Below, piece by piece: positions 27,778 through 50,212 of a stretch of DNA of 64,000 bases; positions within the stretch are counted from its first letter, which is position 1, and the number at the start of each line of letters is the position of its first letter. The notes beneath the pieces are model-generated. The model searched no databases. It had not been told where the DNA came from and was given only the letters and a program-made list of their open reading frames with translations. Both the position numbers and the translations under genes were made by a program. The DNA comes from Blastobasis lacticolella (Eukaryota; Arthropoda; Insecta; Lepidoptera; Blastobasidae), in NCBI GenBank assembly GCA_905147135.1, contig LR990041.1:15313907-15377906 (forward strand), read 5' to 3'.

Positions 27778-27778
27778 A

Positions 27779-28444
27779 CGTTTTCCATATAGAAATTTGA
27801 AAATCATAATCCGAAAAATTCATCAACTTGAAAATAAATTTTTTTACGTAAAAAATTGGTGGTGAATTTAAAACTATTTGTTAGATACAAAAACATTTAA
27901 AACGTGCCCATTTTACTGCACTTACATTAGATGTTTTCATACCTGTAACGATTGAGTATTTCCGAAACTAGAACATGATTTTGAGCTTGTCCCTGTTTTC
28001 AGCTCAAAACTATGATTTTTTCGGGATTAGCCTTCCATTCATTCATTGAATACCTTCATGTCATTTGATACTCGAAAATTGAGCGGATGTGCCTTTGAAC
28101 TTGACCTTTGTATTCAAAAGTATCAATTACGTTAAAAACTACGGATCTAGATTCTTTGATTATTCAGAGCATAGAAACTAATCTCAAAATTAATGAACAT
28201 TATTTTACAGTGTAAATTATTAACCCATATATCTAATGACATATATTCTATTAATTTCCTTGTTTTCGTGAGTCACTTCCGTTTGTGGTTTGCTGATAAC
28301 ATTTACTGCAAGTAAATTAGTAAAACACACAGCATCGCCAATGATTGTACGTTAACCCAGTGATAAACCTTGTCATTATCAACATAAACGAAGAACTCAA
28401 CTTTTTCTGAATCAAATAAAATACTGATTAATACTATTAGATCT
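27779..28444. other. left flank of the viral block, non-coding
   Basis: AT-rich; no gene recognised. The first 30 bases include the possible integration-motif arm. Confidence 0.5.
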
Positions 28445-29390
28445 TTAATCACTCATATACATGCTTTCTTTACAACCTAATGATAACAAATGTATGTCTT
28501 TTCCGGTCAGGTGGGAGCAAAGTTCAAAATATACGGTAATGTTCTTTTGAATGTTTGCCAAAAAATAAAGCAAGACATTATTTATGAAAATATAGTAATC
28601 TGGCGTGTTCACACTGAAATTTCGCTGCCGCCTGACTGTTATCACCGTTGAAGCCACTGATATAGATCCTCTGTGTACTAGTTGGTACAGACATATGTCA
28701 ATAGCGCAATATGCTGCAGTTCTTTCAATACCGATGTCACAATGGACGACAATTGGACCGGGCACAGGCTGGTTAGTCAGCAATGCTTTCATAAGATCAT
28801 CATGATTTTGCCTATTGACAGCTAGGAAAAATTTAAGGATCGATTTTATCTCAGGAAATCCGGTTCCTGGCCAGTCCAAATACTTGAAGTGATATATTGT
28901 CCTTGTTTCTCCAGTTTGTGTATGAATAACAGTAAATGTTGTGATGATGTACTCGGTTTCCACTGCGATACAGTTTTCTTTTATCACAAATTTCTTCAAT
29001 ACCGCATGATTTTTTGGTACCATTGAGCATCACAATCACTCGAGAGTTCTCCTGCCAGACCATGCTCCAAAAATCATCGAAAGTATGGGCCATGGGTTGC
29101 TGAGTTGCGATAAATTTACAATTCAACTCAAATCCACTGACATAACTGGCGTTGATGTAATCTGATCCACGTTGAGATTTCAGAACCACCCGAGAAATGT
29201 TCCAGCATGGGTAATCCAAGTTACGATTCTTCTTCTTGTTATTAGGCTGCCGAAATGTATCACTAGTACCTTCAATTGGCGTGTTGATGATGTACAAGTG
29301 TTCTAGAAGAAGTGTTTCCTTGTGATTCGGGTCCAGTGCTCTTCGCATATAATCATCAGCTCCATAAACGGTTGAGAGACTGGTAGCCAT
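28445..29390 (-). pseudogene. bracovirus protein tyrosine phosphatase, frame broken (PTP-a)
   Basis: PTP family: cysteine phosphatases that remove phosphate from Tyr; viral ones act in the parasitised caterpillar's cells. The first frame starts at ATG 29390 (M-A-T-S-L-S-T) and has G-S-D-Y-I-N-A-S-Y-V, Q-Q-P-M and F-W-S-M-V-W-Q. At about 29020, in an A-rich run, the reading passes to a second frame that ends at 28445. The V-H-C-D-I-G-I-E-R-T loop keeps Cys and Arg (CX5R), but the WPD loop reads W-P-G, losing the general acid. The segment usually found between N-terminal and central parts is shortened at the shift, so a deletion is likely. The following PTP lies in the same orientation. Confidence 0.85.
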
Positions 29391-29845
29391 CGATGAAGAA
29401 ATCCAGAGTACGAGATGAAAACAGAAGACGTGCAATTGTAACAAATGCGATTATTATACTGATTATCAAACAAACCAACTGGCTATTTAAATGTTTATAA
29501 CAAGCATTTACTAGTAATGGCGTCTTATAGTTTGCGGTCAATTGTTTACAAATTTTCCTGTTGATAATGAAAAGTACTGCAGCACACAATCGAGTTGAGT
29601 TAAGAGAATTACTCATACTAATTATTAGATAACAACAATTTAACCACGAAGTTGTTTCAGAGAACGAATACGGAAAAAAAACATTACAAATCCATAAGTA
29701 CATCACTGAAGTTCATGCCTGAATATGGTTATTTTGCAAATAAATGTAATGTAATAACAAACTCAATAGTTTCTTTTACAATAATGTTATAAATAAAGTT
29801 TTCTTAGCAAACAAACAATAATAAGCTGCAATCGCGACGATTACC
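29391..29845. other. spacer between PTP-a and PTP-b
   Basis: Non-coding, AT-rich. The 3' end of PTP-b is at 29846. Confidence 0.5.
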
Positions 29846-30769
29846 TTAACTTTTTGATCCTAATTTTTCGGAATATGACTGGATTAGACATTTATTAGAT
29901 AATGATAAAAAAAGAACAACTGCATTATTGATGAAAAAATATTGGTCTAACGACTCAATGCTGGAATGTCTCTGCTGTCTGATTTCCAATGCAATTCTTG
30001 GCACTGATACTAATTCCATATACACTATTTGATAGATACAGAAATCGATAGCACAAAAGGTGGCATCACTGCCTGTACCAGTGCTGCAGTAAACAATTAT
30101 CGGTCCTGGTAGTGGTTGTTGACCCGTGATAGCTTTATCTAAGAAGTACTGCTGCTTTCTATTGACCAAAGACACGAAGTCAAGAAACGTTGCTAAATCA
30201 GTACTGTCTCCTTTTGACTGGTTAAGGAACTTGAGGTGGTGCACGGTTCTTGATTGTCCGCTGGTAATATTGTAAACATTGATTATCGTTTCCATGAAAT
30301 AATCATTCAAAATGATATTTTTTGGGGTTAAATCAAATCCGGTTACTGTTGAATCGACGTTGGTTGAAGACTCATCAATTGTCTCGAGGTCATTGGCCAT
30401 CACAATAATCCTGGTCTTCTCTTGCCAGACCATGCTCCAGAAATCTTCAAGCGTGCTGTTCATTGGTTCTTGAGTGACTATAAATTTATTGGCGTAGTTG
30501 AATCCATGAACATAGTTTGCATGAATAAAGTTCCAATTACCATTTGCTGTTAGCAAATGCACTCGGGAACTGTCCCAGCATTTGATATCTGGAAACCGAT
30601 TCTTATTGATATTTTTCGGTTTCTCACATTCTTTGTAAGTACCAAATATTTTCTTGTTGACTATGATTTTGTGCTCCTGAGAAATCCGTTCAAGGTATCC
30701 TGATTCTGACTCAGCTACTAGCTGTAAATAATCACGGGCTCTATAACTTTCAAAGAGATCAACGGTCAT
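29846..30769 (-). CDS. bracovirus PTP-like protein, intact, catalytically dead (PTP-b)
   Basis: 307 codons, single exon, the usual length for bracovirus PTPs. PTP landmarks: N-F-I-H-A-N-Y-V-H-G (IHANYV for INASYV, about residue 80), Q-E-P-M, F-W-S-M-V-W-Q-E, R-T-V-H-H-L-K-F. The P-loop reads V-Y-C-S-T-G-T-G-S-D: Cys is kept, but the preceding His is Tyr and the phosphate-binding Arg is Ser. The WPD position reads L-N-Q-S. It should not catalyse, and may bind phosphotyrosine targets or partners. A TATATAAA box on the minus strand at 30862-30869 lies about 95 bp upstream of the start codon. Confidence 0.9.
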   Translation of the reverse strand: MTVDLFESYRARDYLQLVAESESGYLERISQEHKIIVNKKIFGTYKECEKPKNINKNRFPDIKCWDSSRVHLLTANGNWNFIHANYVHGFNYANKFIVTQEPMNSTLEDFWSMVWQEKTRIIVMANDLETIDESSTNVDSTVTGFDLTPKNIILNDYFMETIINVYNITSGQSRTVHHLKFLNQSKGDSTDLATFLDFVSLVNRKQQYFLDKAITGQQPLPGPIIVYCSTGTGSDATFCAIDFCIYQIVYMELVSVPRIALEIRQQRHSSIESLDQYFFINNAVVLFLSLSNKCLIQSYSEKLGSKS

Positions 30770-30861
30770 TATAAAAACTTTACCTTAATTCGGAGAAAAA
30801 CAAAGTTGGTATCACAAACAGTAATTCTGAAAGAATGAGTTCAATTAGTGGGATGAGCTGC

Positions 30862-30869
30862 TTTATATA
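30862..30869 (-). promoter_or_regulatory. TATA box of PTP-b
   Basis: TATATAAA on the minus strand, about 95 bp before the ATG. No strong initiator was identified. Confidence 0.5.
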
Positions 30870-31234
30870 TTCTCTTATCAAAGAACACGTCAGTTAATTC
30901 ACCAATTCCAATTGTCCCCAATAGCTATAACTGATAGCCTTTTACATTGATTATGTTTTTGCAGTAAACAGATATTCGGTGCAGTTGAAAAACTGGCAGA
31001 GATTACCAGCAAATTCTTACGCAAGCCACCTCTGACAAATTTTTTATCAGCCAGTTGTTTTGCTGGACCACAATTGTGCTATTTGTGGTTTGGTGATGAC
31101 ATCAACTCACAATAGTCTATTAAGTGTTATATTTATTGAGTTGGCATGATGATTTAACCACTGACTTATTCATTCATGTACCAATAATAAATAAATTACA
31201 TTTGTGCTTTCTTATTTATTTATTTAAAATATCC
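30870..31234. other. spacer, non-coding
   Basis: Nothing recognised. Confidence 0.4.
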
Positions 31235-32035
31235 TTAAAGAGACTTACAAACTAAGGATTTCAATTTTTTACATTCTTCACAGTCTTTTCTCAATGGATT
31301 GGGCTTATTTATCGCAATACGATCTGTAGAGTTAAAGTGCTCATTACATGATGTTAATTCTATAAACTTCGGATTCATCTGCATGCGCGGAGGAAGCTTA
31401 GACCATACAAAGTTGATATTCCGGTTTACATGATTCAGGATAAATTTCTCGTCCAAACAAGCGATATCTTGAGGATGCATCTTCATAAGATTTCGTAGCT
31501 GGTAGAAAATCTGCAGCGACTTCCTCTGTGATGGATTAGGACCCCAACAACTTATGAACCATTTTCGCATTTTTTTAACTGTTTCAAATGCACAGGCGTA
31601 GTCACGGGTATTTAAATGTTTGTTTTTGTACAAGCACAGCTTATCCGGAAGAAAGGAAAACATATGATCGACAAGTGGCATCTTGGATAGATCAATGATC
31701 GGCAACGTAAAGCAAATATCTTTCAGAATATGTTTCTTCTCTTCACCTAATACGTAAATGTATTGATCGTGCGGGTTTCCCTCGACTATTTCCATAAGTA
31801 CTTCTCCCAGAGTACTGGAGGAGGTTAATCCTACTCTCATTTTAATGCTATGAGTCTTCTGCCAGAAGTCTTTGGTCTCAATGATCCTGAATTGTTCCTT
31901 GCACTCTGCTGGGGGCCTAAACATATTCAATACAGCAGTGTCCAATCCATCGGTCAGCGAGATGGCGGCCAGTTCTTTGATGATAAAATCTCCATGTTCG
32001 GTGTAGAAGCCCTCGAAATCAATGAACAACTCCAT
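31235..32035 (-). CDS. putative DEDD-exonuclease-like protein of unknown function
   Basis: The frame opens at 32068; I prefer the second Met at 32035 because M-E-L-F-I-D-F-E-G-F begins the recognisable domain at once (266 codons). The start F-I-D-F-E-G-F...I-I-K-E-L-A-A-I resembles uncharacterised insect proteins that begin with a hydrophobic D-x-E/Q-G-F strand and K-E-L-A, a pattern like the first motif of RNase H-fold (DEDD) exonucleases. A second shared block is Y-A-C-A-F-E-T-V-K-K-M-R-K-W. The C-terminus has C-E-E-C-K-K. Function is inferred from pattern only. It sits among the PTPs in the same orientation as its neighbours. It is unbroken. Confidence 0.6.
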   Translation of the reverse strand: MELFIDFEGFYTEHGDFIIKELAAISLTDGLDTAVLNMFRPPAECKEQFRIIETKDFWQKTHSIKMRVGLTSSSTLGEVLMEIVEGNPHDQYIYVLGEEKKHILKDICFTLPIIDLSKMPLVDHMFSFLPDKLCLYKNKHLNTRDYACAFETVKKMRKWFISCWGPNPSQRKSLQIFYQLRNLMKMHPQDIACLDEKFILNHVNRNINFVWSKLPPRMQMNPKFIELTSCNEHFNSTDRIAINKPNPLRKDCEECKKLKSLVCKSL

Positions 32036-32068
32036 CTTGTATCCTAGTGAATTTGAATCGAGTAACAA

Positions 32069-33128
32069 GTAATGCTACTGATATCTAACTGATACAGCTT
32101 TCAATGACAAATTTCCTTATATTGTAAACCCCCCACCACTGTAATTTTTGATAAGAGAAATGAAGACATACCCCGTTCGATACAACTGTCGTAGAAATAT
32201 TGCACACATATCGAGTAATTAGTCACTATTATGATTATGGTTTATTATTTTACTTCCATTGGCTTTCCTGGTGGAAGTTTATGCCCTTATTAAGAGTTGT
32301 TTTCATTTAGATAATTGTTGATTATTTATAGCCATAGATGTGACTAATTTCAAGCGTATTGTTCATAGAAGTGTTGAAAAATGGCCACGGAAAAAAACTT
32401 ATTGAAGATATTCTGTTGTCCGCCAATAAGTAGGCTTTTAGCATATAAACCCGATAGCCTGAAGTGATTATTTTAATTTAATTACACTATTGATTATTTT
32501 GACTTGAAAAACTTTTCTGTTGCTGAAAAATTCCAAGTCTTGGTTCGCTGATATAACAATTAAAGAAATCTAATGAAGTTGGATAAAATTGGTGATTCAT
32601 ATTTCACTTGTGATTAATCAACTGTTATTTTAGTTTTGCTATCGATAGTTCACGACCTTTTTTCTAAGAACTAATTACATATATTTCTTGAATGCCTCTA
32701 TTCTCCTCTTTCGATGTTATCGAGCTTCCGTTGGTAGCCACAGAGCTCTTTGTTAATCATCGTATATAGGTCCTACAGTGTTAATTATCATTAATGCATA
32801 AATGTTACTAGTGGTAATATTTCAATAAAAGGTGTATCACTGTATATTTAAGTTTTTTTTATTGCACTACAACATAATTATCAATAAACTTAATAATGAT
32901 GTCTTATTGGTAAGCCTCCTTAGCAGTCTACAAATCATTTACAGCGTCAATATACATACTTTTATTGCTTTATCAAAATCGTATGACTAAGGTGCGCATC
33001 AAAATATTTCGACCAAATCACGATGTAAAATACAAAAATATATATACGGTATAAATAACTACCTAACGATACTTCAATAAGGATTTTTGAACTGGTTGTA
33101 GAACACAACACTTATGATATTCAAAGTA
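32069..33128. other. 1-kb viral spacer
   Basis: AT-rich, no gene recognised. Poly-A-signal-like AATAAA words are frequent. Confidence 0.45.
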
Positions 33129-33790
33129 TCAAGAAGTCATATCAGACTTCTTCTCGACATAGGCTCCAAGAAATTGGTAACATAAAGTATAGTTTTCTAA
33201 GCGGTTTATGAACCCATATTTTTGTTGCCTTACTTTCTTGAGAACACTTGCCACTGATAGAGTTCCCGTTTTCTCAAATTGTGCAGCACATATATCAAAT
33301 ACGCAAAAAACCGTAGAGCTACTGAGCCCGTCCAGGCATTGCACAATAATGGGTGCAGTTTCCTTGCCAGCTTGTTTCTCCAACTGAAGGCACAAGTCTT
33401 TCACGTTACAATAAAAATCCATGAATGCATCCAGCTGATGGGAAAAGTTGTCCCTCGGCCAAGCAGTGTATTGACAGTGAGATGTTTTGTGCTCGTGGCC
33501 AGACTGGTCGGTCAGACTTAGCAAAGTCAACTTATAGTGCTATGCGGTTTTGTACCAATCTCCAAAGTCTTTATCTTAAACTTATCGCACACTGTCACAC
33601 AACCCTCATCCGGGAACAAATTTTGGCTACTCCTCTTGTCACTGAATCGATCCATCATCACAATGATTGAGACCTTGTAATCCCACACGATTTCCCAAAA
33701 TTTTCCGCGGAAATTCTCTTGCAGGCTTTTGATGTAAATATACTTCCGCTCAGTCTTATAACCATCGATGAAAGTAGCACCAAGAATTGT
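33129..33790 (-). pseudogene. bracovirus PTP, 5' truncated and frameshifted (PTP-c)
   Basis: The C-terminal half is an open frame (33129-33530) with Y-T-A-W-P-R (WPD to WPR) and P-loop V-Q-C-L-D-G-L-S-S-S: Cys kept, His changed to Gln, Arg changed to Ser. The upstream part (about 33530-33790) shows A-T-F-I-D-G-Y, F-W-E-I-V-W and I-I-V-M-M-D in another frame. The N-terminus is lost: at about 33790 PTP homology ends and an exon of the small multi-exon gene family begins on the other strand. Confidence 0.8.
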
Positions 33791-34535
33791 CTCGTTACTT
33801 TATTACAGGCAAGCAAGTGTGCAAGTATGCCCTTGAAACAACATACAGAACTCATAAAGGACTAATGTGAGTATGAACAATACCACTAATCATTAAACCG
33901 TCTGGTAATTAGGAAAAAGCATTGTCACTAAATTTTGATTTTTATGGAATTTTCAGGCAAAGAGCTGTACAATTATGCCATTGAAACAACATACAGATCT
34001 CACAAAGGACTAATGTGAGTGTGAACATCATCAATAATCATTAGACCGGCTGAAATTTATACGAGTCCATTTTTAATAATTTTGATTTTTTTGTACATTT
34101 TCCAGACCTCGGAAAACATTCGTCCAGTCTGCGAATACGAGTAACTCAATTTCCTTTGTGACGAAAGTTTCTGACAACCAGTGGGAAATGACGTGCTTCA
34201 ATCGTTTGGTTCCACCTGAGTAAGTTCAAATAGTTTTTAAATTTTTTACAAGCTTGCAAGCTATGTTTTACAGTTTTTTCTTTTATCAAAATTACGATGA
34301 TTAATTAATTTGGATTAGTTTTAATTTTTAGAACAGATACGTTATGACTTTATTCAAACATTACATTTTTGTTACAGAGGATCCTGGTGCGGTCAACCAT
34401 TAACATACCCCTGGATGGCTTAGTGGCTTTCGAGTCTCAGAAGATCCTACTTGCATATCTATGCAGAATCGCTAGCAGTCACCCTTCAAATATAATGAGA
34501 CCCTCAGTCCGAAAAATCCAAATTGTATAATTATT
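33791..34535 (+). pseudogene. truncated copy of the small multi-exon gene family (exons 4, 4', 5, 6)
   Basis: Two tandem exon-4-like pieces (ending at donors near 33864 and 34014, each with Y-R-T/S-H-K-G-L-M), an exon 5 (about 34107-34220, ending C-F-N-R-L-V-P-P-E like gene A) and an exon 6 start (G-S-W-C near 34379) that soon meets a TAG where gene A has Cys. Exons 1-3 are missing; PTP-c abuts the break. Read as a decayed paralogue of gene A (34860-36026). Confidence 0.65.
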
Positions 34536-34746
34536 TGAATTTTCAATAAATACTTTTGTTGTTTATTACATCATTTTCATTCTACTTTCCTTTTTTAACA
34601 CCAGAGCGCTCTTTCGGCAGTAATGCTGCCTCTTGCCCTTAAGGGATCAGCTTAGAATTAGTCATCGTATGCTTATAACATAATATTATTACAACTACCG
34701 TGCGAGCACAAATTAATCATCACAAGGCTCATTATTGGAGAGTAGT

Positions 34747-34774
34747 TATAAATGCAAACTCCCGATACTTCAGT
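34747..34774 (+). promoter_or_regulatory. TATA box and initiator of gene A
   Basis: TATAAAT at 34747-34753 and an arthropod-type initiator TCAGT at 34770-34774, about 25 bp apart, about 90 bp upstream of the ATG at 34860. Confidence 0.6.
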
Positions 34775-34859
34775 CACTCCTGCGAGTCCGTGGTGTCAAC
34801 GGCTTTAAATTTGCGTTAATTTATTCCTTGTAAATCACCTATATTTTAGAGAGAAAAAA

Positions 34860-36026
34860 ATGGAAGTGAACCAACCTTTAAATTTGACATTCAACGTATC
34901 CAAGGAATGGTCGAAAGCAATTAAATCAGTGATACTTGAAAAACTATTGAAAAAAGCTCTCACTGATTATCACTCAGGCCAAAAAGACGTTGTAACTAAA
35001 AATGGAGTTTCAGTATCGATTGTTGATGAACCATCTGGACTTTTGTTCCTAAGGATGGAAGAAGTGTAAGCTCTTTTATTGTACTTTTGGAAGTTTATTA
35101 TTTGAACTTCGAAATCCTGAAATTTTTCCGTTTTCAGAAAAGATAACGAAACTCATCGAAGTGATGTTCTTCTACCGATGAAAGCTTCGATAGTGAAGCT
35201 TAAACGCACTGCACCGAAAGAAAAGGTCCAACTGTAAGTATGCAGAAATTTTTAAACTGAATATCTTCGATTCAAAAACGCGTCTGATTTACTTTTTACT
35301 TACAGATTTGACCTGCCTGTGAAGCTAACAAAAGATCACCCATTTTCGGACTGGTTTGAACCAAGATCCGATCGCTCAAAAGTTGTGACGGCTACACCAG
35401 TTCTTGAACAGTGAGCACTTAATCCAAATCCTACCATCCATATTTCGTTCTTTTGAAATGTAGAAAACTTTAGTTTATTAACTTGAAATCGTTTTCGCAA
35501 AATTTTCGAGGCAAAAGGTATTACGGGCGAAGAGGTGTATGATTACGCCATTGAAACAATATACAGAACTCACAAAGAACTAATGTGAGTATGAACATCA
35601 TTAATCATTAATAATTATTAGACAAGTGTTTTTTCAGTAATTTTGCTTTTTCTTTCAATTTTTCAGGTCTTGGAAAATATTCGTCCAGCCAGGGTTAACG
35701 GATAATTCAATTACACTTGTGAAGAAGATTTCTGATGACCAATGGAAGATGACATGCTTCAATCGTCTGGTTCCACCTGAGTAAGTATTTCAAATATTCT
35801 AACAGTTTTTACTTTTATCAAAAGTATGGTGTTTATCTATAAGTAAAAATTGTGAAAAACTTCAATTGAATCTGTTAAAATTGTTCTTAATTCCTAAAAT
35901 AGCTTTATTCGAATGTTACATTTTTGTTACAGTGGATCCTGGCGCCATCTATCATTAACTTTTCCTTGGATTGCTTGTGGATTCCGATTAGACAAGAATA
36001 CTGAAAAGTTTATGCAGAATCAATAG
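34860..36026 (+). CDS. bracovirus small multi-exon gene A, unknown function
   Basis: Exons 34860-35065, 35138-35233, 35306-35410, 35667-35780 and 35933-36026 join without a stop, every junction in phase 2, giving about 203 residues. An extra exon-like piece at 35511-35584 (Y-D-Y-A-I-E-T-I-Y-R) has splice signals but the wrong entry phase, so it may be skipped or decayed. Exon 1 begins MEVNQPLNLTFNV and is mixed alpha/beta in look; no signal peptide and no known domain was recognised. Gene B has the same exon plan and equal exon 3 and exon 5 lengths (105 and 114 nt). The 3' end has an AATAAA near 36090. Intron-bearing small gene families are typical of bracoviruses. Confidence 0.7.
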
Positions 36027-36029
36027 TTA

Positions 36030-36671
36030 TCAATTCAAAAATAATCGCACGCCTCATACCGCAAACTATTTGAAATGTACATTGACATGAATAAACACTC
36101 CAGTTAATATACGTGGTATCATTTAAAGCCTTTTTATTTTCCTCAAAGTTCAGTTACTTTTGAATCGACTAGTCACAGTAGTTATTGTTTTTTATAAACC
36201 ATTAAAATATTTGCACGAATAATAATTGAGTATGACATCACTTTTTAGTTATAACTTACGGGAATTTCAGGTACATTATAGAGTTTATAATCATGACATC
36301 CGCTATAAAATTTATTGACTTTTGTATGTGAATCCATAAACTCTAATTAAGGTCACAATATAATTAGTAACATATTCTTACGCCATAAAACATGAACTAG
36401 TTTGTAATAGTTTAAATTTTGGTCATGGTGTCCTGAAATCAAAGGTAATTTCGCACTTGAAAGGTCTTAGAAGAACTCAACTCATGATAGTTATAATATT
36501 TCACTTAATAAGCACATTCTACTTTAAATGAGTCACTTGATTGACTAGCATACAAATATCCTCCAACAGCAGATATTTAGTCAGTGTGTTGATGACACGG
36601 GTTCAGAGTTAACTCATTATTTGTTTAAATGAATTGTAATATTCATTTTAAAGACTAATCAATTTTAAATC
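36030..36671. other. spacer between genes A and B
   Basis: AT-rich, non-coding. It should contain the promoter of gene B, but no clear TATA/initiator pair was picked. Confidence 0.4.
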
Positions 36672-37807
36672 ATGGATAGATACCAATTCTTAACTTTGAA
36701 AATTAAAGTGCCTGGTGATTGGCCGGTGCGAACCATACATGACCAAATTTTGGACGCGGTTCAAAATGCAATTACTTATTATTTGTCGGGTCAACGAGTG
36801 GTCGTAACTGTTGGAAATGTTTCGGCGCTGGTTACAGAGGACGAGTCTGGAGATGGATATTTTTTCATGAGGATCCAAGAAGTGTGAGTATTCTTTTTTG
36901 TACAAAAGCTTTTTCCCAAATCCAAAATTCTGAAGCTCAAATTGTAATTTTCAGGCCTGATCCCCAAACTTACGGAATTTATTTGATTCTGCCGACAAGT
37001 ATTTTGATGCTGAAGCCGAATTCTGGAGAATCTGATATAGAGATGATACCGATGTAAGTATCCACTGACTCAATAGTTTGGCGCCAAATTTCGTGATTTA
37101 GGCATGTTACTTACTGTCTTTATTTTTTCAGACCACTGCTAGCTGCGAATCTAAAATTTCATTCTGTTCCTTCGAAATTGCTTCAAACAAGACTGGGCCA
37201 TTCTTATATGAAAATTGCAGTACCAAACCTCAAAAAGTTCGTTTTCTATTACTTATGTCAACATATTTTGATGTATAATGAGATTAATTTACTTATTTAA
37301 ATTTTTTCACAGAATTATGCAGTCACAGAATATAAGAGGCAACGAAAAGTTCATATGTATTTTGAGATCAACATACCGCGTTCATGAGAGCATACAGTGA
37401 GTAAATTAAAACGATACAGGAGTATTATGATTCCAAAAAGTCTTTTCATAATTTGTAAGCTTTTTTGTACATTAAATCTTTACAATCTTTTCAGACTCTC
37501 AACAATATTGCAACAGTTTACGCTAAAAAAAAATCCATTTATATTCGGAGCACAAGTTTCTGATGATAAATGGGACGTGGTCTACTATGACCAAATTCCA
37601 AAACCTCTGTAAGTTGTTGCATCTTTATATTTCAAAAGTTGACTCAGAGATCAAAATTTTGATAAATCACTTGCATCATCAAAGCAATGGTAATTTTTAC
37701 ATGTACATAGAATTGATTGTTTCCAAAATCATGTTTTTCAAAGGTTTATTTTAATACTGAACTTTTGTTATAGCTGGCGCAGGTGTGATTGGAAATGCAG
37801 CGGATAA
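36672..37807 (+). CDS. bracovirus small multi-exon gene B, unknown function
   Basis: Six exons: 36672-36883, 36955-37053, 37132-37236, 37313-37396, 37495-37608 and 37774-37807, all joined in phase 2 without a stop; about 215 residues. Exon 1 aligns with gene A exon 1 (initiator Met, a W.V/K.I core, Y-Y/H-L/S-G-Q, V-V-V/T and D-E-S/P-G-D/L..F-x-R-M/I-E/Q-E-V). The donor of exon 3 is GTTCGT, weaker than the others. The sixth exon is only 11 codons and ends C-D-W-K-C-S-G. No signal peptide or known domain was seen. Same orientation as genes A and C, so tandem duplicates. Confidence 0.7.
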
Positions 37808-39525: not shown

Positions 39526-39696
39526 AATTCAATATAAAAACAGTGTAATTTTACTGCAAAATTTACTTCAGCGAAACACTTACTCTACATACTTAACCTA
39601 CATCGCGTCACCCAGAGTTCGAATAGGAAAATGTTGAGTACAATCAATGGGTAGGCATATGAAATAGTACTACGGCTGACCTTGGTCGTAAAAATT

Positions 39697-39707
39697 TATA
39701 TTTAAAG
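39697..39707 (+). promoter_or_regulatory. TATA-like element of gene C
   Basis: TATATTTAAAG about 410 bp upstream of the ATG. A plausible untranslated first exon ends at about 39824 (AAAG before GTTCGT), with acceptor TTTTTCAG at 40107. Confidence 0.4.
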
Positions 39708-40462: not shown

Positions 40463-40900
40463 GCGAGAAAAAAATCGTACAATGAATAAGACTGATTTTT
40501 ACCAATACCTGAAAATCTGAGATGCGATCCAATTATGAATTCTAGAATGTCAGCGTCACACAGATTGCTTTAAAGCAAAAGGTTTATATTTCCCTAATTT
40601 CTTCAGATAAGATAATACTAATATTTTGTATTATTGCAAATTATATTCAAAGCGTCTTCTTTTACTAACTTTCGTGTTCATTTTTCAGGCTTTCAATAAT
40701 ATCAGACCCTACATCCTAATCAGATCCTGTCTGAAGCTATGACGATTTTTGTAAGTCCTTGCATTCAATTTTTAGAGACAATTTCCAATTTTTTTGGCCA
40801 GAAATTTCAGAAAACAGATGTAATAATATCAATTTAATATTAAACTTTTGTTACAGATGATGGTGCAACTGGGAAGTAGCATACACTGAAATTTTTTTTG
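40463..40900 (+). pseudogene. decayed 3' exons of gene C
   Basis: TTTTTCAG acceptor at about 40689 and GTTACAG at about 40857 each precede short stretches resembling exon starts of gene B (C-T-W..W-C-N-W near the end). No intact reading frame. Confidence 0.45.
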
Positions 40901-41094
40901 TGGACATTCAGAGACCTCAGAAGAAATAACTGTGATATTATTTTAATTAGTTTTAATAAATTCTTCAATAAGCAGAAATTGAATTTTACTTACATGGTAT
41001 AAAACTCTAAAAAAATATTTCACAACCATTAGTCAAAAATACAACCAAAAAAACTTAATTTCTAACTTAATCTTTAGATACCTTGAACATTTAC

Positions 41095-41640
41095 CTAGTT
41101 TTCACTATCACTAAATTCACTTTCACTCTCACTTGAATACGGCTGATGACAGTCCGCGCCAAATTCCATAAAGATGTCCCATTTGAAGTCACCTCTTTTC
41201 CAAGCCACCTGATAAGCAGTTAGTCCTCCATAGTCACGAGCTTCCAAATCGACGGCAATCTGCTGACAAATCCAAGTTGCCAGCTCGTAATCCTGATTAA
41301 CGACAGCAATATGAAGCACTGTACTTCCAGAAATTCTGTCTGGTGCATTCAGGTCTGCCCCCATCTCCATCAGGATTTCCAGTAACCGCACAGCCTTCTG
41401 CCCTCTGTGATTTCGCGCTACGATATGGACACACTGATGTCCTTCATAATTGTACACCCGCAGCAGAGATTCGTTGTTATAATCCAACCACAATCCAGCT
41501 TGCAGGAGTAGGGATACACACCCATACTGACAGATTTCATGGAAAAAATTGTTTCCTCTGCTGTTCACTGCACCGAAAATTTTGCTAATTACAAAAGACT
41601 CCATTGCTTCAGATGCAAAAAAGTATGGATCTATCTCCAA
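41095..41640 (-). CDS. viral ankyrin (IkB-like) protein
   Basis: 181 codons, single exon, typical length for polydnavirus ankyrin proteins. These resemble the ankyrin core of IkB without its degradation signals and are known from other viruses of this group to block NF-kB/Rel signalling in parasitised hosts. Ankyrin repeats: N-F-F-H-E-I-C-Q-Y-G (about residue 31), H-Q-C-V-H-I-V-A-R-N-H-R-G (about 69), G-S-T-V-L-H-I-A-V-V-N-Q-D-Y-E-L-A (about 104), G-G-L-T-A-Y-Q-V-A-W-K-R-G (about 138). The C-terminus is acidic and Ser-rich (S-E-S-E-S-E-F-S-D-S-E-N). Single-exon and unbroken. The neighbouring PTP-d is in the same orientation. Confidence 0.9.
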   Translation of the reverse strand: MEIDPYFFASEAMESFVISKIFGAVNSRGNNFFHEICQYGCVSLLLQAGLWLDYNNESLLRVYNYEGHQCVHIVARNHRGQKAVRLLEILMEMGADLNAPDRISGSTVLHIAVVNQDYELATWICQQIAVDLEARDYGGLTAYQVAWKRGDFKWDIFMEFGADCHQPYSSESESEFSDSEN

Positions 41641-42373
41641 GGAATGCTACTGTAAGACTGAAGTCAAAGTATTTCAAATTCATGATTTTATCGGGATCGG
41701 GAATACCAAATAGGGACTGTTAGGTTGGAATAAAGCAAATTTATGTGCATGATTAGGAAATGGATTTTCCGAACAATACCGAGTTGTACTAAGTTTTAAT
41801 GAAGCTGTACAATGGATCAATTTTTTCCTTTTATGCTAAACAGTCGGTATTATGTCATGGTGCTATGTAAGGTCTTATGAATAGGTTCTGAAATAAATAA
41901 TGACTGATATGTCGAAACGATACAATTTATAATTTTGATAACAAGATAAGTGTGTTGAGATATCTAAAAGCTTGAAAGTTTTCTGCTATAACATAAAACG
42001 TGATATTACTATCTCATTTGTTATCATTTATCATTATAGCCTACGATTTTGTTGACAATCACTTTTACAGAAAAATGATACCCATTGCTTTTATGTGAGT
42101 TCAACCAGATGCAAATGGAAAAACCATTTAGAATAAAAAAACCATTCTAAAAGTGAATATATTCTAAAGATTTTGGATTGAGGAAAATTTTACAAATATG
42201 GTGAAGCTATCCTTATTCCGTATAATTTTAAGGTATAATATTCACTGAAAGATCAACTGATGGAGGAAAACTTAGGACGATTACCTTAAATGTACCATGA
42301 TGCATAGTAGTACAAAAGAAATTATCAACATGAGTAAAACTAATGAACCATGTGGTTGAATTGTTAATACATT
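41641..42373. other. viral spacer
   Basis: AT-rich; no gene recognised. Confidence 0.4.
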
Positions 42374-43252
42374 TCAAAGTGTATCAATTTGAGTAGATTC
42401 TCTTTCATCTAAATATCTTTGGCTCCATCCCATTTCCCCTAAGACATACACATGAATGGCTTGATAGCAGAAAGTGTAATCGTCTATATGGTTCAGGCAA
42501 CTATACTTTTGCTCTCTTAGTTTCTGAAGAGTCTTAGCTACTGACAACGTACCTGTGCACTTAAACTGGGTAATACAAATGTCGATAATACAGTACACTG
42601 CCGAGCAGCTGAGACCATCACTGCAGTGGACAAGAACAGCTCCAGGCTTCCAGCCAACCGGTTTTTCTTTTGCAGAAATGGTATACGTGTCGTTCAAACT
42701 GCACACAAAGGACAAGAACTTGAATGGATCATCTTCATCGATATTACGCCAGGCAGTGTACTGATAATGCCGAATCTGACGCTTATGATCCGCGCGGTCA
42801 GACAGGCGCAGCACTGTCAGAGTAAAACGAGTCTCTTCAGAGATCTTCAGGGTCTTTATTCTAAACCCTCCACACTCTATCTCACTGCCTTCCGTGGGAC
42901 TCCAGTACTTGTAGCTTTCTTCATCAGCTCTACGTGATGTCTTGACGATAGTTGTAACTTCACGACGCCAGGCTAATTCAAAAAATTTCCGTTACTTCCG
43001 TTGTCCGTCAAGTGCATTGTAGCCATCTATAAAACTGGCGCGTTGATAGCTTTCTTCTGTCTTCATGCTGTAGATGAAGTGGTGCATCAGCTGTAAACAT
43101 CCACCGCGGGCAGCCTCATTATCAGGTTCATCGAAATTTTTCCGGTTCAACTCAATGGTATTGTATTCTTGATGGATGCGGTCAAGGTAATACGGATCAT
43201 CCATAAGGTTCAAAAAGTCAATGGCCAAAATATCTGGAAATTCAGTAGTCAT
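42374..43252 (-). pseudogene. bracovirus PTP, frameshifted (PTP-d)
   Basis: The N-terminal frame (43252 down to 42992) has A-S-F-I-D-G-Y and then runs out of frame. The rest (about 42985 down to 42374) continues in another frame with F-F-E-L-A-W-R, Y-W-S-P, Y-Q-Y-T-A-W-R-N (WPD to WRN) and P-loop V-H-C-S-D-G-L-S-C-S: His and Cys kept, Arg changed to Cys. A single frameshift near 42985 separates the halves. C-terminal frame intact to 42374. Confidence 0.85.
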
Positions 43253-43254
43253 GT

Positions 43255-44387
43255 TGGTTTACAAATCACAGCTACGGAAATAGCTCCACTTCGTAAGGCA
43301 GTACTTGTTGAACTAGTCTCTCGGTGGCTACTGTTTCAATTAACGAGTGTATGATGACACCCCAGTGGTTAATTAATTAATTTAGAATGTAATGAGTCTG
43401 TAGGCATGTAAGGTTTTTCCGGTAAGACTTTAATGACCATTGAAGTCAAGTGAGTTTTAGTGCTCTGGGAAACCCGACCGCCGCGTGCTCGTTAATTCTT
43501 TCCGACTTTATTTTCCATTCAAATTATCCAAATTAAATTGCTCGGGTCCTGCTGGGCAGACGTAGATTGTGCCCTTACAAGAGGCTATTAAATGCGAGTC
43601 CGAGCCAAACTGAGCTCAATCAAGTACAGAGACGGCTTTTAACCAAAAAATACTTAGACATCCCAGACGGGGAATCTCATTAGATTTAATGAGATTCATT
43701 GGTCGTTAATGGAACGATGAATTATATTGTAATTTATTTATTGTTGTTTTGATAGCAAATAATGAGATAGTTATCTCGCGAGTCCTATTTCGATGCAAAT
43801 CTCAAAAAGCATAAAGTAGAAAAAATAATGAAATAACGCTTTATTGAAGTATTAATAATTAATAAGCGACATCAAAGGCATTTCAAGCGTTTTTAAGTTA
43901 GACGCAAAACAGATTACTCATGTAATACCTACGGTGTGGTGAACAAACATTCATGAATTTAAAATATTTATTGCTATATTTTCCCTATCACACCCTGATG
44001 CTAGTTTATTATTAGTTTATTGGTATGTACTTATTATTCATTGCTACCTTATACATTCTGAGCTGAAAATAGTTTACATACCCAAAGACACGGTAGAGTC
44101 TTGCGCCAAGCACCGTTAAAACGCCATGATTTTACTCTAGTACACAAAGAACACTAATTTCATTGTTGCGACATTTCGGACAGGCTCTAAGGTCTCACTT
44201 CTATAAAATTTGACAGAAATTATTAAGGCTTTGACCGAATGAAAATTAATGTTAAAATATTTTCTACGTATTACGAGACAGGCGTTTTCATTTGCGACTA
44301 TTCGACCACAATTGAAATATTTACATTATATTAATCAATTTCACGTCATTAAATCATCAGCGATGTATCATAGGGAAAACGGGATCA
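43255..44387. other. 1.1-kb viral spacer
   Basis: Divergent spacer between PTP-d (minus) and PTP-e (plus). AT-rich; no gene recognised apart from promoter elements at its right end. Confidence 0.45.
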
Positions 44388-44422
44388 TATAAATAAGGAA
44401 TTTTAAAACATTGTACTTCAGT
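44388..44422 (+). promoter_or_regulatory. TATA box and initiator of PTP-e
   Basis: TATAAATA at 44388-44395 and initiator TCAGT at 44418-44422, about 30 bp apart, 47 bp before the ATG at 44469. Confidence 0.65.
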
Positions 44423-44468
44423 TATTTTTGTGTGCTTGAATCCACTAGGTCTGTGCTAATTGACCAAA

Positions 44469-45266
44469 ATGTGGAATTTAAAATCAAAATCATTGTCCCC
44501 AAAGGACTTCATCAAGCTGATGAATAAGCCTAATTTCTTGAAACATCTATCCAAAGAGCATAAGCAAGTTTTGAAGACTGGAGTACCACCAACACTCAAC
44601 GCATTCACTCATACTGGACCCGAATACAACATCAAAGGCGACATGAAACCCAAAGAGCATATTGCCAGTGAAATGCCGCAGTCCGAGATGGAAGCCCAGG
44701 CCTTGTGGGAAACAGTATGGAAGCATCAAAGCAAAATCATAGTGATGCTCAACGAACCTGACGAAGAAAGAAACTGTCGCTTCTGGAGCTCTGCAGTCGG
44801 AACATCGCTTCGATTTGGAAAATTAACAGTCAGCACTGTCAAAGTTCGCACCATTCTACAAACTCTTGAAATCAGAAATCTCAAGATAAATGACGAAAAT
44901 GGGAAATGGTTTACTGTTTACCACTTTCTGTACTTGTACTGGCCAGTTGACAACGATTTTCCTTCTAGTGATAACTTCTGGAGGTTGCTGCTTACGGTTA
45001 ATAAATACAGGGAAAGTATAGAGAGTTTGGAAGGCCATATGAACCTAATCCTTGTCCATTGCCGTAATAGATCAGATAGAACGATGTTCTACTGGGCAAT
45101 CGAAAGAATATTTTTAGAATATGTCCGAACAAAGAAAGTTAATATATTTTCGAAAGTATTGGAATTGAGAAAGGAAGGGTTCAACTGCTTGTCCAAAGAA
45201 AAACATTACATTTTTTGCTACGCCACTCTGTATCATTATTTAATTCATGAATCTTCATTATTGTAA
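44469..45266 (+). CDS. bracovirus PTP-like protein, intact (PTP-e)
   Basis: 265 codons from ATG 44469 (M-W-N-L-K-S-K-S); the frame is open slightly upstream, but that is not an ATG start. Shorter at the N-terminus than PTP-b: the region before the IVML strand is reduced and the INASYV motif is replaced. P-loop V-H-C-R-N-R-S-D-R-T keeps the CX5R spacing, but the usual Gly is Arg, and the WPD loop reads Y-W-P-V. Activity is doubtful; it is the only intact frame with both Cys and Arg. AATAAA lies near 45420. Confidence 0.88.
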   Translation: MWNLKSKSLSPKDFIKLMNKPNFLKHLSKEHKQVLKTGVPPTLNAFTHTGPEYNIKGDMKPKEHIASEMPQSEMEAQALWETVWKHQSKIIVMLNEPDEERNCRFWSSAVGTSLRFGKLTVSTVKVRTILQTLEIRNLKINDENGKWFTVYHFLYLYWPVDNDFPSSDNFWRLLLTVNKYRESIESLEGHMNLILVHCRNRSDRTMFYWAIERIFLEYVRTKKVNIFSKVLELRKEGFNCLSKEKHYIFCYATLYHYLIHESSLL

Positions 45267-46071
45267 TTTACGTAAGGCTAAAATTGATCTCCATGAAATT
45301 TCAATGTATTTAAATATGAATGTGAACCAAATATTTAGTTATAGATGAATTAGGCTAAGATTTATTATAAATTAAGTATTTTGATCTCTGTTACTAGTCA
45401 TTAAGATTAATAATTATGAATAAAACATATCAAAATTTTTAATAAACTTAAGAATGTAGTCAGTAAATATTTTCGTTGTTATTTCTCGTCTCATATCCTG
45501 TTTTTGCGATAAGCGAGTTTCCATGAAGAATCTTTTGTTTACGGCGACTAGTGTCGGCGTTTATTTGATCTATAACAAATAAATTTGAAGCAAAGGTTCG
45601 GGTCCATAAATCAGCTATCGTCAATCAATTAGTAGTTATAAAATGATATCGAGATAAGCTAATATTCATCGAACACGTTTATTGGATCGTTAATGGGCAT
45701 TTTGTTTTTGTTTAAACTTATAAATATTGACCCAATTAAATTTATTCAGATAAGTGTTATAATATGGCTAATATTTGATTAACAAGAACTCTTTATGAGT
45801 TTAGTCTGTTAACTAGTTTTTTTGCCAGTTTGGTAAATAAAAATACGAGTCATGTAGAAGTTTTACACGTTTCCAAATTATTCACAAATTTATTTTCAAA
45901 TTCAAAAATAAAGTATAAAAATTGAATTTCATTAGAGAACACTTTAGAGATCACAAGTTACATAATTTTGGAATTTTCATTCCATAAATACTTAATCTAA
46001 CAATTCCAAAAAGTCAATTTTCATACAACCATTTTTACGGAAGATCAGCGAAATTTTTTTCAAAACTACTT
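45267..46071. other. convergent viral spacer
   Basis: 3' ends of PTP-e (plus) and PTP-f (minus) face each other. AT-rich, with several AATAAA words; no gene recognised. Confidence 0.45.
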
Positions 46072-46890
46072 TTAACATTTCTTAACAAAATGATACAGTG
46101 CATTGTAAAAAAATACGTAATTTTCAGGCTGGCTAATAAAATTTTCGTCGATCTGTCTCATTTTCATTTGAGCTTTCGCCACAGACACAACTTTGTTTTT
46201 CTGAAAGTCACTAATACACATGTCTAACACACAGAACACACTGGACTTAGCACCATCATTACATTGGACCACTATTGGGCTGCTAGGAACATCTTGATCA
46301 GTTTTAATCTTATCACTTACTTCATTAACAATACCAATAAATTTAATAAATTGATTCAGACAATGGGATATGTTATCCAAAGGCCACTTGGTGTAGAGAA
46401 GATGCACAACTTCCTTCACTTTATCGTCTTGCTTCAACTCCAGCGTTGTCTTGGTGCAGCAATCCGTTATCAAAATTTTAACAGCTTTAATCCTAATTTC
46501 CTTGCACTCGACTTCTGCATCAGTCTTCCAGTACGGATAGTCATTTTCGCCGTTAGCTGCCAGTACGACTATCACGTGGCAATTCTTCTCCAAAATCATG
46601 TTCCAAAATTCGTACAATCTATCACTAGTCGGGTGAATCATACACAAAAATTTAGCGATATCTTTGCTCGTTATTGCCTTTCCAAAGCCACATAAAATGC
46701 CCAGAGATTTCACACCGCAAAAGACTTTCTTAGTTTTTTGACTCTTGAGATCTTCAGGGCTTAAATTCTTGGTTATCTGATTGTATTCTTGCAAAATTCT
46801 GGAAACAGCACTTGGATTTTCCATGAAACTGATGAAGTTCTTGGTGTCTAGTTGGATCAGATTTTGGTTTTCTGGATGCAGTTTTTTCAT
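46072..46890 (-). CDS. bracovirus PTP-like protein, intact, catalytically dead (PTP-f)
   Basis: 272 codons. The INASYV region is not recognisable. Landmarks: L-Y-E-F-W-N-M-I-L-E, V-I-V-V-L-A, Y-P-Y-W-K, V-V-H-L-L-Y-T-K-W-P-L (WPD to WPL), and P-loop V-V-Q-C-N-D-G-A-K-S-S with His to Gln and Arg to Ser. C-terminal helix region V-F-C-V-L-D-M-C-I-S is conserved with the other PTPs. Pseudophosphatase by sequence. Confidence 0.87.
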   Translation of the reverse strand: MKKLHPENQNLIQLDTKNFISFMENPSAVSRILQEYNQITKNLSPEDLKSQKTKKVFCGVKSLGILCGFGKAITSKDIAKFLCMIHPTSDRLYEFWNMILEKNCHVIVVLAANGENDYPYWKTDAEVECKEIRIKAVKILITDCCTKTTLELKQDDKVKEVVHLLYTKWPLDNISHCLNQFIKFIGIVNEVSDKIKTDQDVPSSPIVVQCNDGAKSSVFCVLDMCISDFQKNKVVSVAKAQMKMRQIDENFISQPENYVFFYNALYHFVKKC

Positions 46891-47877
46891 GATCTTAAAA
46901 ACAAAGTTTGACTAACTGAGTAAAACTTATTTGAATCCTATCTATTTAAATTGAGCAGCCTTTCACACGGACGAGCTATAACAGACTTGCTTGAAAACTC
47001 GTGGAAGCCTTAGGTCTAGCAAGATTGATCGTCGATAATCTGATATTGTGTTTGTACTGTCGCGCTGATGTTTGTTCGAGCAAAAATAGACTTATTGTTA
47101 TTTGGCCTTCAGTTCAAAAGTGAATCAACCTCTTGAAGTAATGAGGCTGCCTTAATACCAAGACAACGCCTACGTACAATTGCTGAAAACTAATCAGTAT
47201 TTAGGCGATTAATGCTTACTAGACTATGAAATGTTTTAGTCCTCTAATCGATCATTTGATATCAAACGAAATCGCCATCATTTTTGTAGGTTAATCTCAA
47301 AAAAGGGCACTGGTGTATCAGTTTTCATTCATGAATTGAATCCAAAATAAGGAAGAAAGTTTGGTAAAACCAAATAAGCATGCCTAAAGCGCTCATGATA
47401 TTAAAATCTATGCTAACGCCATCTTGCACGTTCTGGTAGAAATTGTAAGTCCTCGCTAAACTCTGTTTATTATATTTTTTCTACATATGGCTGCCTGAGA
47501 TGTGAATTTTTTAGATTCGACAGTACAAAACTTATTATTTTATAATGAAACTAATAATTATCGAGTTGTGGTTTTTTAATCAGTTCGTTCCAATTAAATC
47601 GTGGTCCTATTGAAATAAAATTTAAGCGAATTTGTTGTGTTTTTCGAAAGTTATCGAGATTACTAGTACATGTATTTGCAATGTTAGACAGAATTTTCAC
47701 AACATTTTTTCATAAAAATTCATTTTTCTCTAAACTATGGGATTAATCAGCTGTATATTGTTTAGAAAAATTGACATTGATGTTTTTCTCTTATTATTGT
47801 ATGCAATTCGACCCTTTTTAAACACAAATAATTAATTTATTTACTTAGAAACTTTGACGAAACCGAGATTTTGATTT
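46891..47877. other. divergent viral spacer
   Basis: Between PTP-f (minus) and PTP-g (plus). AT-rich; no gene recognised. Confidence 0.4.
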
Positions 47878-47918
47878 TTAGGCGAGAGTAGAGCGCTTTG
47901 CGCTTAAGGCATGCAATA
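47878..47918 (-). repeat. inverted-repeat arm, right
   Basis: TTTTTAGGCGAGAGTAGAGC then GCTTTGCGCTTAAGGCATGCAA, the complement of the arm at 38450-38502. Confidence 0.65.
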
Positions 47919-48116
47919 CTATATTATAACACTTTAGTGAGCTGTGATTCATTGTATTTCAGGACAATATGAAAAATATCAATGTTATCGTGCAATGACG
48001 GTACGTACTATTTACGTAAAGTATGAATAATTAATGTAACTATAAATTGTTTTTAATTAGCAAACAATAGACATTCGATCTCTAACCTCAGTCAGGACAA
48101 GTAACATCCTGTCATC

Positions 48117-48974
48117 ATGGGTGGAACCTCGTCTAGGATAAGTGACAGTGAAGAAGAATACCAATCAGGTGTAAAAGCGATTGAAGAAAATTTGAGTTTG
48201 AAGCATGAACACAGGAAGCTATTGAAGGAAAGTGCCATGTTACCATGCAGCATAGCAGAACTGCCAGAAAATGCTGAAAAAAACAGACATTCGATGTGCT
48301 TCGACTACAACAGAGTGACCCTTCCAGGAAGAGATGGGAGTGACTTTATCAATGCTTCGTGGGTCGACGGCTACAGGGCTCCAGGAAGATTTCTACTTTG
48401 CCAGGCGCCACTTCAAGAGACCGTTCAAGACTGGTGGACTATGATACTCGCTTACAAGATAAGAGTGATTGTGATGCTGACTAGAATCATGGAACAAGAC
48501 CAAGAAGCTTGTTTCCCCTACTGGAGCCAAAAGCGGCGGACATCAGTCAGCTTCGGCGAGTTTTCTGTTGAAACCAAGAAAGTTAAAGCCTTTCGAGATC
48601 ATGTTGTTACTAGTCTCCGTGTGAAAGATGGCAGTGGAGCTTCGTTGGATGTGAAACACTTTGCGTACACCGACTGGCCTTCCCAGGGAGTTCCTCAAGA
48701 TCCTTCAGGCTTCTTTGACTTTCTTCTGAAAGTGAGAGAAACTCAGTCAAAAGCCGAGCTCCATCAAAATGACTTTCTTCCAATGCTGGTACATTCTAGT
48801 GATGGGTTGAATCGAGCCGGTGCTTTCGCGGCTATTGACATTTGCTTGACTCAGTTGAATGAGAGCAAAACAGTAAACCTTATGTCAGAGGTACGAAGTT
48901 TACGCAGACAAAGATGTAACTGTTTATCCCTACCACAACATTACATTTTCTGTCATGATCTATTTTTTGAGTAG
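48117..48974 (+). CDS. bracovirus PTP-like protein with Cys-to-Ser P-loop (PTP-g)
   Basis: 285 codons, unbroken. Starts MGGTSS, which fits the N-myristoylation consensus (Gly2, Ser6), so membrane targeting is possible. PTP landmarks are well kept: S-D-F-I-N-A-S-W-V-D-G-Y, C-Q-A-P-L, W-W-T-M-I, I-V-M-L-T, F-P-Y-W, H-F-A-Y-T-D-W-P-S-Q-G-V-P. The WPD Asp is Ser. The P-loop reads V-H-S-S-D-G-L-N-R-A-G: Arg and Gly kept, catalytic Cys replaced by Ser, the change used in the laboratory to make substrate-trapping PTPs. It should bind but not cleave phosphotyrosine. AATAAA lies near 49003. Confidence 0.92.
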   Translation: MGGTSSRISDSEEEYQSGVKAIEENLSLKHEHRKLLKESAMLPCSIAELPENAEKNRHSMCFDYNRVTLPGRDGSDFINASWVDGYRAPGRFLLCQAPLQETVQDWWTMILAYKIRVIVMLTRIMEQDQEACFPYWSQKRRTSVSFGEFSVETKKVKAFRDHVVTSLRVKDGSGASLDVKHFAYTDWPSQGVPQDPSGFFDFLLKVRETQSKAELHQNDFLPMLVHSSDGLNRAGAFAAIDICLTQLNESKTVNLMSEVRSLRRQRCNCLSLPQHYIFCHDLFFE

Positions 48975-50212
48975 TATTAAAAATATGTATATTTTGTATT
49001 CAATAAAGCTCAAATTATTACTGTAGTCTCTTTTTTATGACCTTAGATATCATATTCCTAAGACCTATATCTACTAATTTGTATGCCAGAATATTAATAC
49101 TGAAATAACTGATAGCAATAAGCTCGCAAAGAGATTAACGAAGGCGTTTACCTAAACGTAATCAGCGAATTTTATGTTGTAGGTTGGAAAATTCGTTGGC
49201 GTCTGTTATTGCTGTCACTTATCGTTAAATGCGTGCGCGTTAAGTCATTTGGTTCTATTTTAGTTCGACCCGGAGACAAGGCAGTGCCTCGCGCCAAGTA
49301 CACGTTCAACCTATTAAACCTTATGCTTTAACAGGATGAAAAATTGGAAGCCTTTTAATGTTTAATTCAGATTGCCTTTAAAATATTTTGATTCTTTGAA
49401 TCTTTTCACAGAAATGTTACATATGTAACACAAAGTTTTACAACTATGGCGCAAAAAGAGCAGCTCTTACCTACCACGTGAGTAAATCGGAGGTTAGTCC
49501 CCAATCAATGAAGAGGAATAATTAGCTGATATAGATTGGATATAACCCAAATACATTGACTGTAAATTATATTGTTCTTTGCAAAGAGAAGGAAAAACCA
49601 GTCAGAGGTAACTACTAACCACAGGAAATTGTGGTTCACGAATAAGTTATCAGTAGCAATCTTACTTTAGCTTTAAAATATATTTATTGTAATTATTAAC
49701 AAGGGTTATTAATATTGTATGATCTCATTAGAAATATGGTATATAACATACCAATTGTTTAAACTATTTTCAATACGGATAAGGCTATGGTTTTCCTGTT
49801 TTTGTTACTCTTATCAAATTTGGATTTCCCATTGCCTACATCATTGTTATAAATTACTGCTTTTGAAGGCAGTCGCGAATAAAATTGAATTATCTATCAA
49901 GTCCTCTAGAAACTTCTATGGTTTTTCTCATGAATAAGTCATACTTTCATGTGTTGCTGGCCAAGAACGATTTGTTCAAAATTTTGATTCTGTTCTTAAA
50001 AAGCTATATACTTTACATATTATCCGTATGATATTCACTCTTTGCACATTAACAGTAATCAATTCGTTCACTAAGTAAATTCAGTTTCCTCAGACTTCTA
50101 TGGTCAATTGAAACGTCACATCATTATAGTCATCAATTTGTTATGACGTCATCGATTTGGCTGTTGATTTTTTGCCAAGTCAACTAACTTTCTATAATAT
50201 GTTACTCAATTT
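48975..50212. other. right flank of the viral block, non-coding
   Basis: AT-rich, no gene recognised. The last 30 bases before 50212 include the possible integration-motif arm. Confidence 0.45.

Follow-up and report, generated by a model that had tools for sequence, protein, structure and literature searches.

A bracovirus circle inserted in a moth retrotransposon in Blastobasis lacticolella, and three-base target duplications at related copies

The block, its genes and its flanks

The stretch of DNA considered here, referred to below as the window, comprises 64,000 nucleotides of the moth Blastobasis lacticolella (GenBank assembly GCA_905147135.1, contig LR990041.1, positions 15,313,907 to 15,377,906), and positions given without a contig name are those of the window. 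Within it lies a 22.4-kb block (27772..50194, no strand assigned) that is confirmed to be a circle of bracovirus DNA which has been opened at the host integration motif (HIM) and lies inside a lepidopteran long interspersed nuclear element (LINE) of RTE type; it is identified by its gene content and by the recurrence of the same ends in four further copies, and is called element 1 in what follows. An earlier reading of the window, made from the sequence only, had put the edges at 27778 and 50212, which is close, but comparison with other copies in the genome places them at 27772 and 50194.

In GC content the left flank, block and right flank stand at 0.43, 0.35 and 0.43 respectively, while repeats internal to the window cover 22%, 7% and 22% of the same three parts. 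No blastn match at E 1e-3 was found between block and flanks, which bears out the sequence-only reading in its claim that the block is free of the repeat families of the flanks; a search of Rfam gave 0 matches.

Of ten proteins of the block that were compared with Pfam, eight, from frames at seven loci, proved to be protein tyrosine phosphatases (PTPs; family Y_phosphatase, with E-values for the individual pieces from 4.6e-11 to 3.3e-65), one was an ankyrin protein and one had no family. All seven PTP loci that had been proposed are therefore present, although the accompanying claim of intact frames stands only in part, as four of the seven have a frame that is open across the whole domain or the greater part of it, and three are broken. 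The broken ones are locus 1 (28445..29450, − strand), split into two frames and with a 41-base deletion inside it, locus 3 (33120..33799, −), also in two frames, and locus 4 (42374..43258, −), with one in-frame stop; that deletion in locus 1 occurs in the window copy only, and the other four copies have an open frame of 348 aa there. The open ones are locus 2 (29846..30784, −; 312 aa, Pfam 2.3e-46), locus 5 (44460..45266, +), locus 6 (46072..46911, −) and locus 7 (48105..48974, +; Pfam 3.3e-65). The ankyrin-repeat protein is likewise real, being an open frame of the bracovirus ankyrin type (41095..41646, −) with matches to Ank_2 (2.8e-15) and to I-kappa-B-alpha (8.4e-17).

A search with the protein of PTP locus 2 (29849-30784) among some 5.8 billion proteins returned 15 matches, the best of which (65%) is a PTP on a 25-Mb contig of Cydia pomonella, followed by PTPs of Glyptapanteles (three, at 49-53%) and by four proteins without a name from short contigs; the remainder are six weak nematode PTPs and one EukProt transcript. 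In a tree of 12 rows the Cydia protein and that of locus 2 stand together (support 100/99) and the group holding the Glyptapanteles PTPs adjoins this pair (80/79), while the other PTPs of the window lie on long branches. The Cydia protein (P0001), annotated as the moth gene "non-receptor type 9-like", is of bracovirus type, and probably represents another germline insertion.

The protein without a family (31235..32035, −; 266 aa) has only two matches at E 1e-3, in Cotesia congregata (51%) and Glyptapanteles flavicoxis (48%), and may be called a bracovirus orphan. Together with the Glyptapanteles matches of PTP locus 2 it upholds the bracovirus origin that had been proposed, and the block thus holds two virulence families, PTP and ankyrin, as well as a gene confined to bracoviruses. 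A suggestion that the orphan might be a globin (28 weak rows from the PDB, best E 0.012) was rejected as chance; its start, D-F-E-G, presumably recalls exonuclease folds, although the fold model (mean pLDDT 38.9) is too weak for use, and hence to test that.

Between 33800 and 40860, on the + strand, are direct repeats with open stretches that form three gene-like units with duplicated exon-like parts, of an unnamed family. The small multi-exon genes previously described therefore exist as repeated multi-exon-like units (33.8-41 kb), but they are unproven as genes, as none of the four pieces given to Pfam reaches a family cut-off. Elsewhere in the block a 36-nt inverted repeat is found, with its arms at 38479-38514 and 47859-47894 (83% complementary).

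Both flanks are parts of one and the same RTE-type LINE, as was established by tblastn of full-length relatives and by alignment of the edges. On the left (27147..27771, +) lies its endonuclease part, corresponding to residues 157-366 or so of a protein of about 990 aa and with a change of frame near 27.6 kb; on the right (50204..51999, +) lies its reverse transcriptase part, residues 387-985. Between them about 19 residues (some 57 bp, counted on relative P0019) are gone. For the reverse transcriptase half, among the best 120 of 1657 relatives, 41 rows name an organism (counted by eye), of which 38 are Lepidoptera, two are beetles at 50-52% and one is labelled Pseudomonas aeruginosa; the closest among these listed matches are from Loxostege (85%) and from Chilo and Cydia strobilella (84% each). 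The sequence bearing the bacterial label (P0071) is 79% like the moth LINE, and is probably insect contamination or a mislabelled entry. Lepidopteran chromosomal DNA is thus present on both sides of the block, in a genome of 577 Mb assembled in 45 contigs. Further out, a GC-rich tandem array with units of 18 and 36 bp occurs in two copies in the opposite flanks (7260-7698 and 61483-61945), with surroundings 93-95% alike; two of three tRNA predictions (7443 and 61664) fall inside these arrays and are likely to be false.

Ends of the circle and its further copies

At the left edge of the block the HIM half J1 (27772..27799, +) begins with the border 5-mer ACAGG, further in from which stands GAAATTTG, with one mismatch to the published GAAATTTA. 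The corresponding half J2 at the right edge (50185..50194, +) is truncated and reads TAACTTTCTA; in four of the five copies of element 1 this end has the form TAACTTTC..CCTGT, and the last 18 viral nucleotides present in those four are absent from the window copy. An inverted 8-mer and a border 5-mer are therefore found at both ends of the element, the chance level being such that the 8-mer occurs within one mismatch in 5.0% and 4.7% of the block's 30-bp stretches. The published HIM comprises 8+5 (or 9+5) bases; in Cotesia its border is ACCAG, accompanied by GAAATTTA, and in Microplitis the border is ACTAG (PMC7843510), so that the border ACAGG found here differs from both. Integration of a circle at the HIM is expected to remove a HIM spacer of 39-73 bp. 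The window's own ends offer weak to modest tests (an inverted 8-mer is common to their outer 25 nt, but of 20000 control pairs 205 show one too), and they are read as HIM-type because the other copies decided the matter.

Those copies number at least four, on contigs C17, C16, C20 and C2 (at 21.3 Mb, the second C2 copy), with unrelated flanks; in the stretches fetched, similarity begins no more than two bases from 27771 and ends at 50194. Over the pieces compared, the five copies are 95.6-99.3% alike. Where the end pieces are compared, the window, C17, C16 and C20 copies differ by 0.24-0.72%, which fits the earlier description of the insertion as fairly recent, while the second C2 copy differs by 1.4-3.3% and also lacks at least two internal stretches, which in window coordinates are 31.1-32.9 and 33.1-34.0 kb. 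Among the four closer copies (i.e. with the second C2 copy left aside) there are 71 private differences and 14 sites common to two copies against the other two. As for the damage at the right end of the window copy, its simplest reading is that the missing 18 nt and the missing 57 bp or so of LINE were lost in one later deletion across the junction, imprecise integration being the alternative.

Two other circles have ends like those of element 1, namely ACAGG and a GAAA-containing stretch on one side and, on the other, CCTGT or (in the third circle) ACTGT. Element 2 is a circle of 6.9 kb, found on C21 and C12, the right end of which has 40 matches on 19 contigs, 97-100% alike and every one of them reaching the last base. 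Four of its copies compared over 6.1 kb are 0.10-0.15% apart, with 15 private and 0 shared differences; a fifth fetched copy (C10, L017) was left out of this comparison because its structure differs. Element 3 is a circle of 9.9 kb (C21), present at two sites that are 99.1-99.4% alike. The young copies compared accordingly stand in a near-star relation to one another, and the copies as a whole are of several ages. With an assumed moth mutation rate, rough estimates put the main element 1 copies at about 0.7 million generations and element 2 at about 0.2 million, and these figures would be too old if variation already existed among the circles.

A search of the genome with PTP locus 2 gave at least 127 matches, a lower bound within which not each match was checked for bracovirus origin, and these group into 78 sites on 23 contigs. 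One site (C8:16525530-16564166) is a tandem array with 18 matches to a PTP type of 343 aa, at roughly two per 2.8 kb, which may be due either to unequal crossing-over in the moth or to a circle that carried such an array beforehand.

A candidate for the site of circularisation, the direct repeat junction (DRJ), lies at 49969..50100 (no strand assigned), with AGCT at 50002, and is common to element 2 in inverted orientation. A comparison between end pieces of the two elements gave its best matches in PTP coding sequence (E 1.9e-12) and in a block some 133 nt long that is non-coding (66%, E 1.4e-11), contains AGCT in both elements and lies some 192 nt from the end in element 1 and 175 nt in element 2; a weaker block near the other end (100 nt, 62%, E 3.9e-5) has AGCT in element 1 only. 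In all but three of 19 circles of C. vestalis the wasp integration motif (WIM) lies 128-427 nt away from the HIM, and values in the table reach 472 (PMC8460044). The block of about 133 nt lies where a circularisation site (DRJ/WIM) would be expected, and is a probable candidate for one.

Target duplications and the manner of joining

At all 18 copies with both ends located (four of element 1, 12 of element 2 and two of element 3) the insert is flanked by a target duplication of 3 bp, and in none of the 18 does the match extend to a fourth base. In contrast, when left and right flanks of different copies are paired, the triplet is identical in only 22 of 306 cases. The duplicated triplets are of 11 different kinds, 10 of the 18 having the form TNA and 15 ending in A; the element 3 copies add little to the count because both carry the same triplet. 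The count leaves out the window copy, with its incomplete right end, and three of ten element 2 copies, whose right ends lie within ten bases beyond the stretch examined; the final three bases of the window's left flank (27769-27771) nevertheless have a form like that of the duplications elsewhere. A duplication of 2 bp was considered, and dropped once a copy on C11 had fixed the border at ACAGG.

A target duplication arises where the target is cut with a stagger and both ends are joined in one event; repair through microhomology or at a blunt break makes none, and none is expected from simple exchange by a tyrosine recombinase. The constant length of 3 bp therefore points to joining by staggered cut, of the kind carried out by transposases or integrases. 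This bears directly on the routes proposed for circle entry, which in the published accounts include nudiviral tyrosine recombinases, host retroviral-type integrases and break repair through microhomology: chimeric reads show one junction each, whereas the inserts described here show both, and the constant duplication separates these models. The term "target site" is absent from the main texts of PMC8549517, PMC8460044, PMC7843510 and PMC9981800, although no claim is made that the duplication is unreported.

Explanations weighed and their bearing

We consider it very probable that braconid circles integrated at the HIM in germ cells of moth survivors, in several bursts and with 3-bp staggered joining. 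A wasp of microgastrine type would have injected its bracovirus circles into caterpillars of the moth lineage, and in the germ cells of survivors the HIM would have been the point at which these opened, whereupon an enzyme with a target stagger of 3 bp, possibly a transposase of DDE type or an integrase of retroviral type, would have joined them to the chromosome. Joining of this sort would leave complete inserts ending in ACAGG...CCTGT (ACTGT in the third circle), flanked by the duplication. Element 2 would belong to the youngest burst seen, the main element 1 copies to an older one and the remaining element 1 copy to one older still, while the window insert, placed inside the LINE, would subsequently have suffered its single deletion. 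The wasp-to-moth transfer into the germline proposed by the sequence-only reading is thus supported, both by the moth LINE on either side and by the HIM-type ends; that reading foresaw neither the further copies of element 1, nor the multiple copies of other circles, nor the 3-bp duplications. In parasitized larvae somatic integrations amount to 12-85 events per haploid genome (PMC8549517), and with such a load many copies at once are possible.

Several observations must nevertheless be set against this explanation. No target duplication is seen at the window copy, owing to its incomplete right end, and its two ends are similar in inverted orientation over some 60 nt to a degree also reached by 545 of 2000 random pairs, which by itself is not significant. 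IMG/VR yielded no relatives, whether scanned with a PTP (once) or with alignments (twice). Private differences are spread unevenly over the four element 1 copies (29/23/11/8; chi-square 16.6, p 0.0009), which, with the 14 sites divided two against two, is not the picture of a clean single burst, and the uneven counts mean that the copies need not stem from one moment. Finally, drift alone hardly accounts for the retention of about 40 unlinked copies descended from a single parasitized ancestor.

The alternative that survives best is that a few founding integrations were copied inside the moth, the HIM halves serving as terminal inverted repeats open to mobilisation by a transposase or integrase of the moth, and element 2 having spread in the manner of a transposon, which we regard as unlikely but far from negligible. 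Inverted ends with a duplication of fixed length are what cut-and-paste elements leave, and both are present at the 18 copies (the window copy, which lies outside that count, having only its left end complete). Short inverted ends with a 3-bp target duplication are, indeed, characteristic of PIF/Harbinger and of some CACTA transposons, although the 11 triplets found here, with TNA in 10 of 18, follow no strict TWA, and Pfam recognised no transposase family in the ten block proteins and five further block pieces given to it. The 40 right-end matches of element 2 against five copies found of element 1, and the existence of sites where PTP matches of element 2 type number 2, 3 or 18, would also be natural outcomes of multiplication within the moth. 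Very similar copies related to one another in a star-like way would fit a master copy as well, but the four element 2 copies compared show no nested chain, and the published process by which circles pass from wasp to caterpillar is enough by itself to produce ends of this kind and numerous copies in each cell.

A combination of the two, in which 3-bp staggered joining was followed by renewed movement of HIM-ended segments in the moth germline, with element 2 as a multiplying mobile element, seems to us rather doubtful; if true, it would mean that a wasp's gene-delivery circle had turned into a mobile element in a moth.

Distinctly improbable, by comparison, is the idea that the genes have been kept because they are useful to the moth. 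Four of the seven PTP frames of the window copy are open, many of the PTP matches elsewhere are without a stop, and there are published precedents for bracovirus genes in moths (PMC4574769), but youth alone would explain open frames. The earlier suggestion that some genes are retained finds no support in the window copy, because three of its seven PTP loci no longer have an intact frame, in one case through a private deletion. In addition, of 57 positions invariant in seven relatives (P0008 being left out), 7 are changed in PTP locus 2, including the arginine of the active-site signature, a point that is weak because one of the relatives departs at 9/59 positions and another at 25/75.

Somatic integration, contamination from a parasitized specimen, or an artefact of assembly is very improbable: frequent as somatic integration is in parasitized larvae (PMC8549517), the copies lie within contigs of 14-24 Mb, differ in age and have a target duplication at each complete copy checked, while the window copy has private damage of its own (the 41-base deletion and the incomplete right end). 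That the window might be a proviral locus or re-integrated circle in a wasp genome is scarcely credible, for although HIM-ended copies occur in wasp genomes too (6 in C. typhae), the flanking LINE is lepidopteran, the ends are HIM-type, common to dispersed copies and without DRJs at both extremities, and an assembly of 45 contigs with PTP matches on 23 contrasts with the ten chromosomes of C. congregata, where the virulence genes lie in five regions on three of them (PMC7822920).

As regards known systems, integration of circles in germ cells, as preferred here, has its closest counterpart in the HIM-mediated integrations of the bracoviruses of Microplitis demolitor, Cotesia congregata, C. vestalis and C. 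typhae, which according to the published accounts share the inverted 8+5 or 9+5 motif ends, a nearby AGCT circularisation site (a candidate in the present case), PTP and ankyrin genes, and the occurrence of many integrations per cell. Those are somatic, and known from chimeric reads, whereas here both junctions and the 3-bp duplication are seen. The fragments in Danaus, Spodoptera and Bombyx described by Gasmi et al. in 2015 (PMC4574769) are likewise the outcome of wasp-to-moth transfer through a bracovirus, but that report states that no complete-circle integration was found, in contrast to the present 22.4-kb segment with HIM-type ends on both sides and several copies.

Insertion of bracovirus DNA from wasp to moth is therefore of a kind already known, what is added here being the evidence from both junctions and the number of copies. 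HIM-mediated germline insertions of polydnaviruses have reportedly been described in many moth species by Heisserer et al. (Mol Biol Evol, 2023). With so many PTP matches, many of them on nearly identical segments, the flow of genes from wasp to moth may be large.

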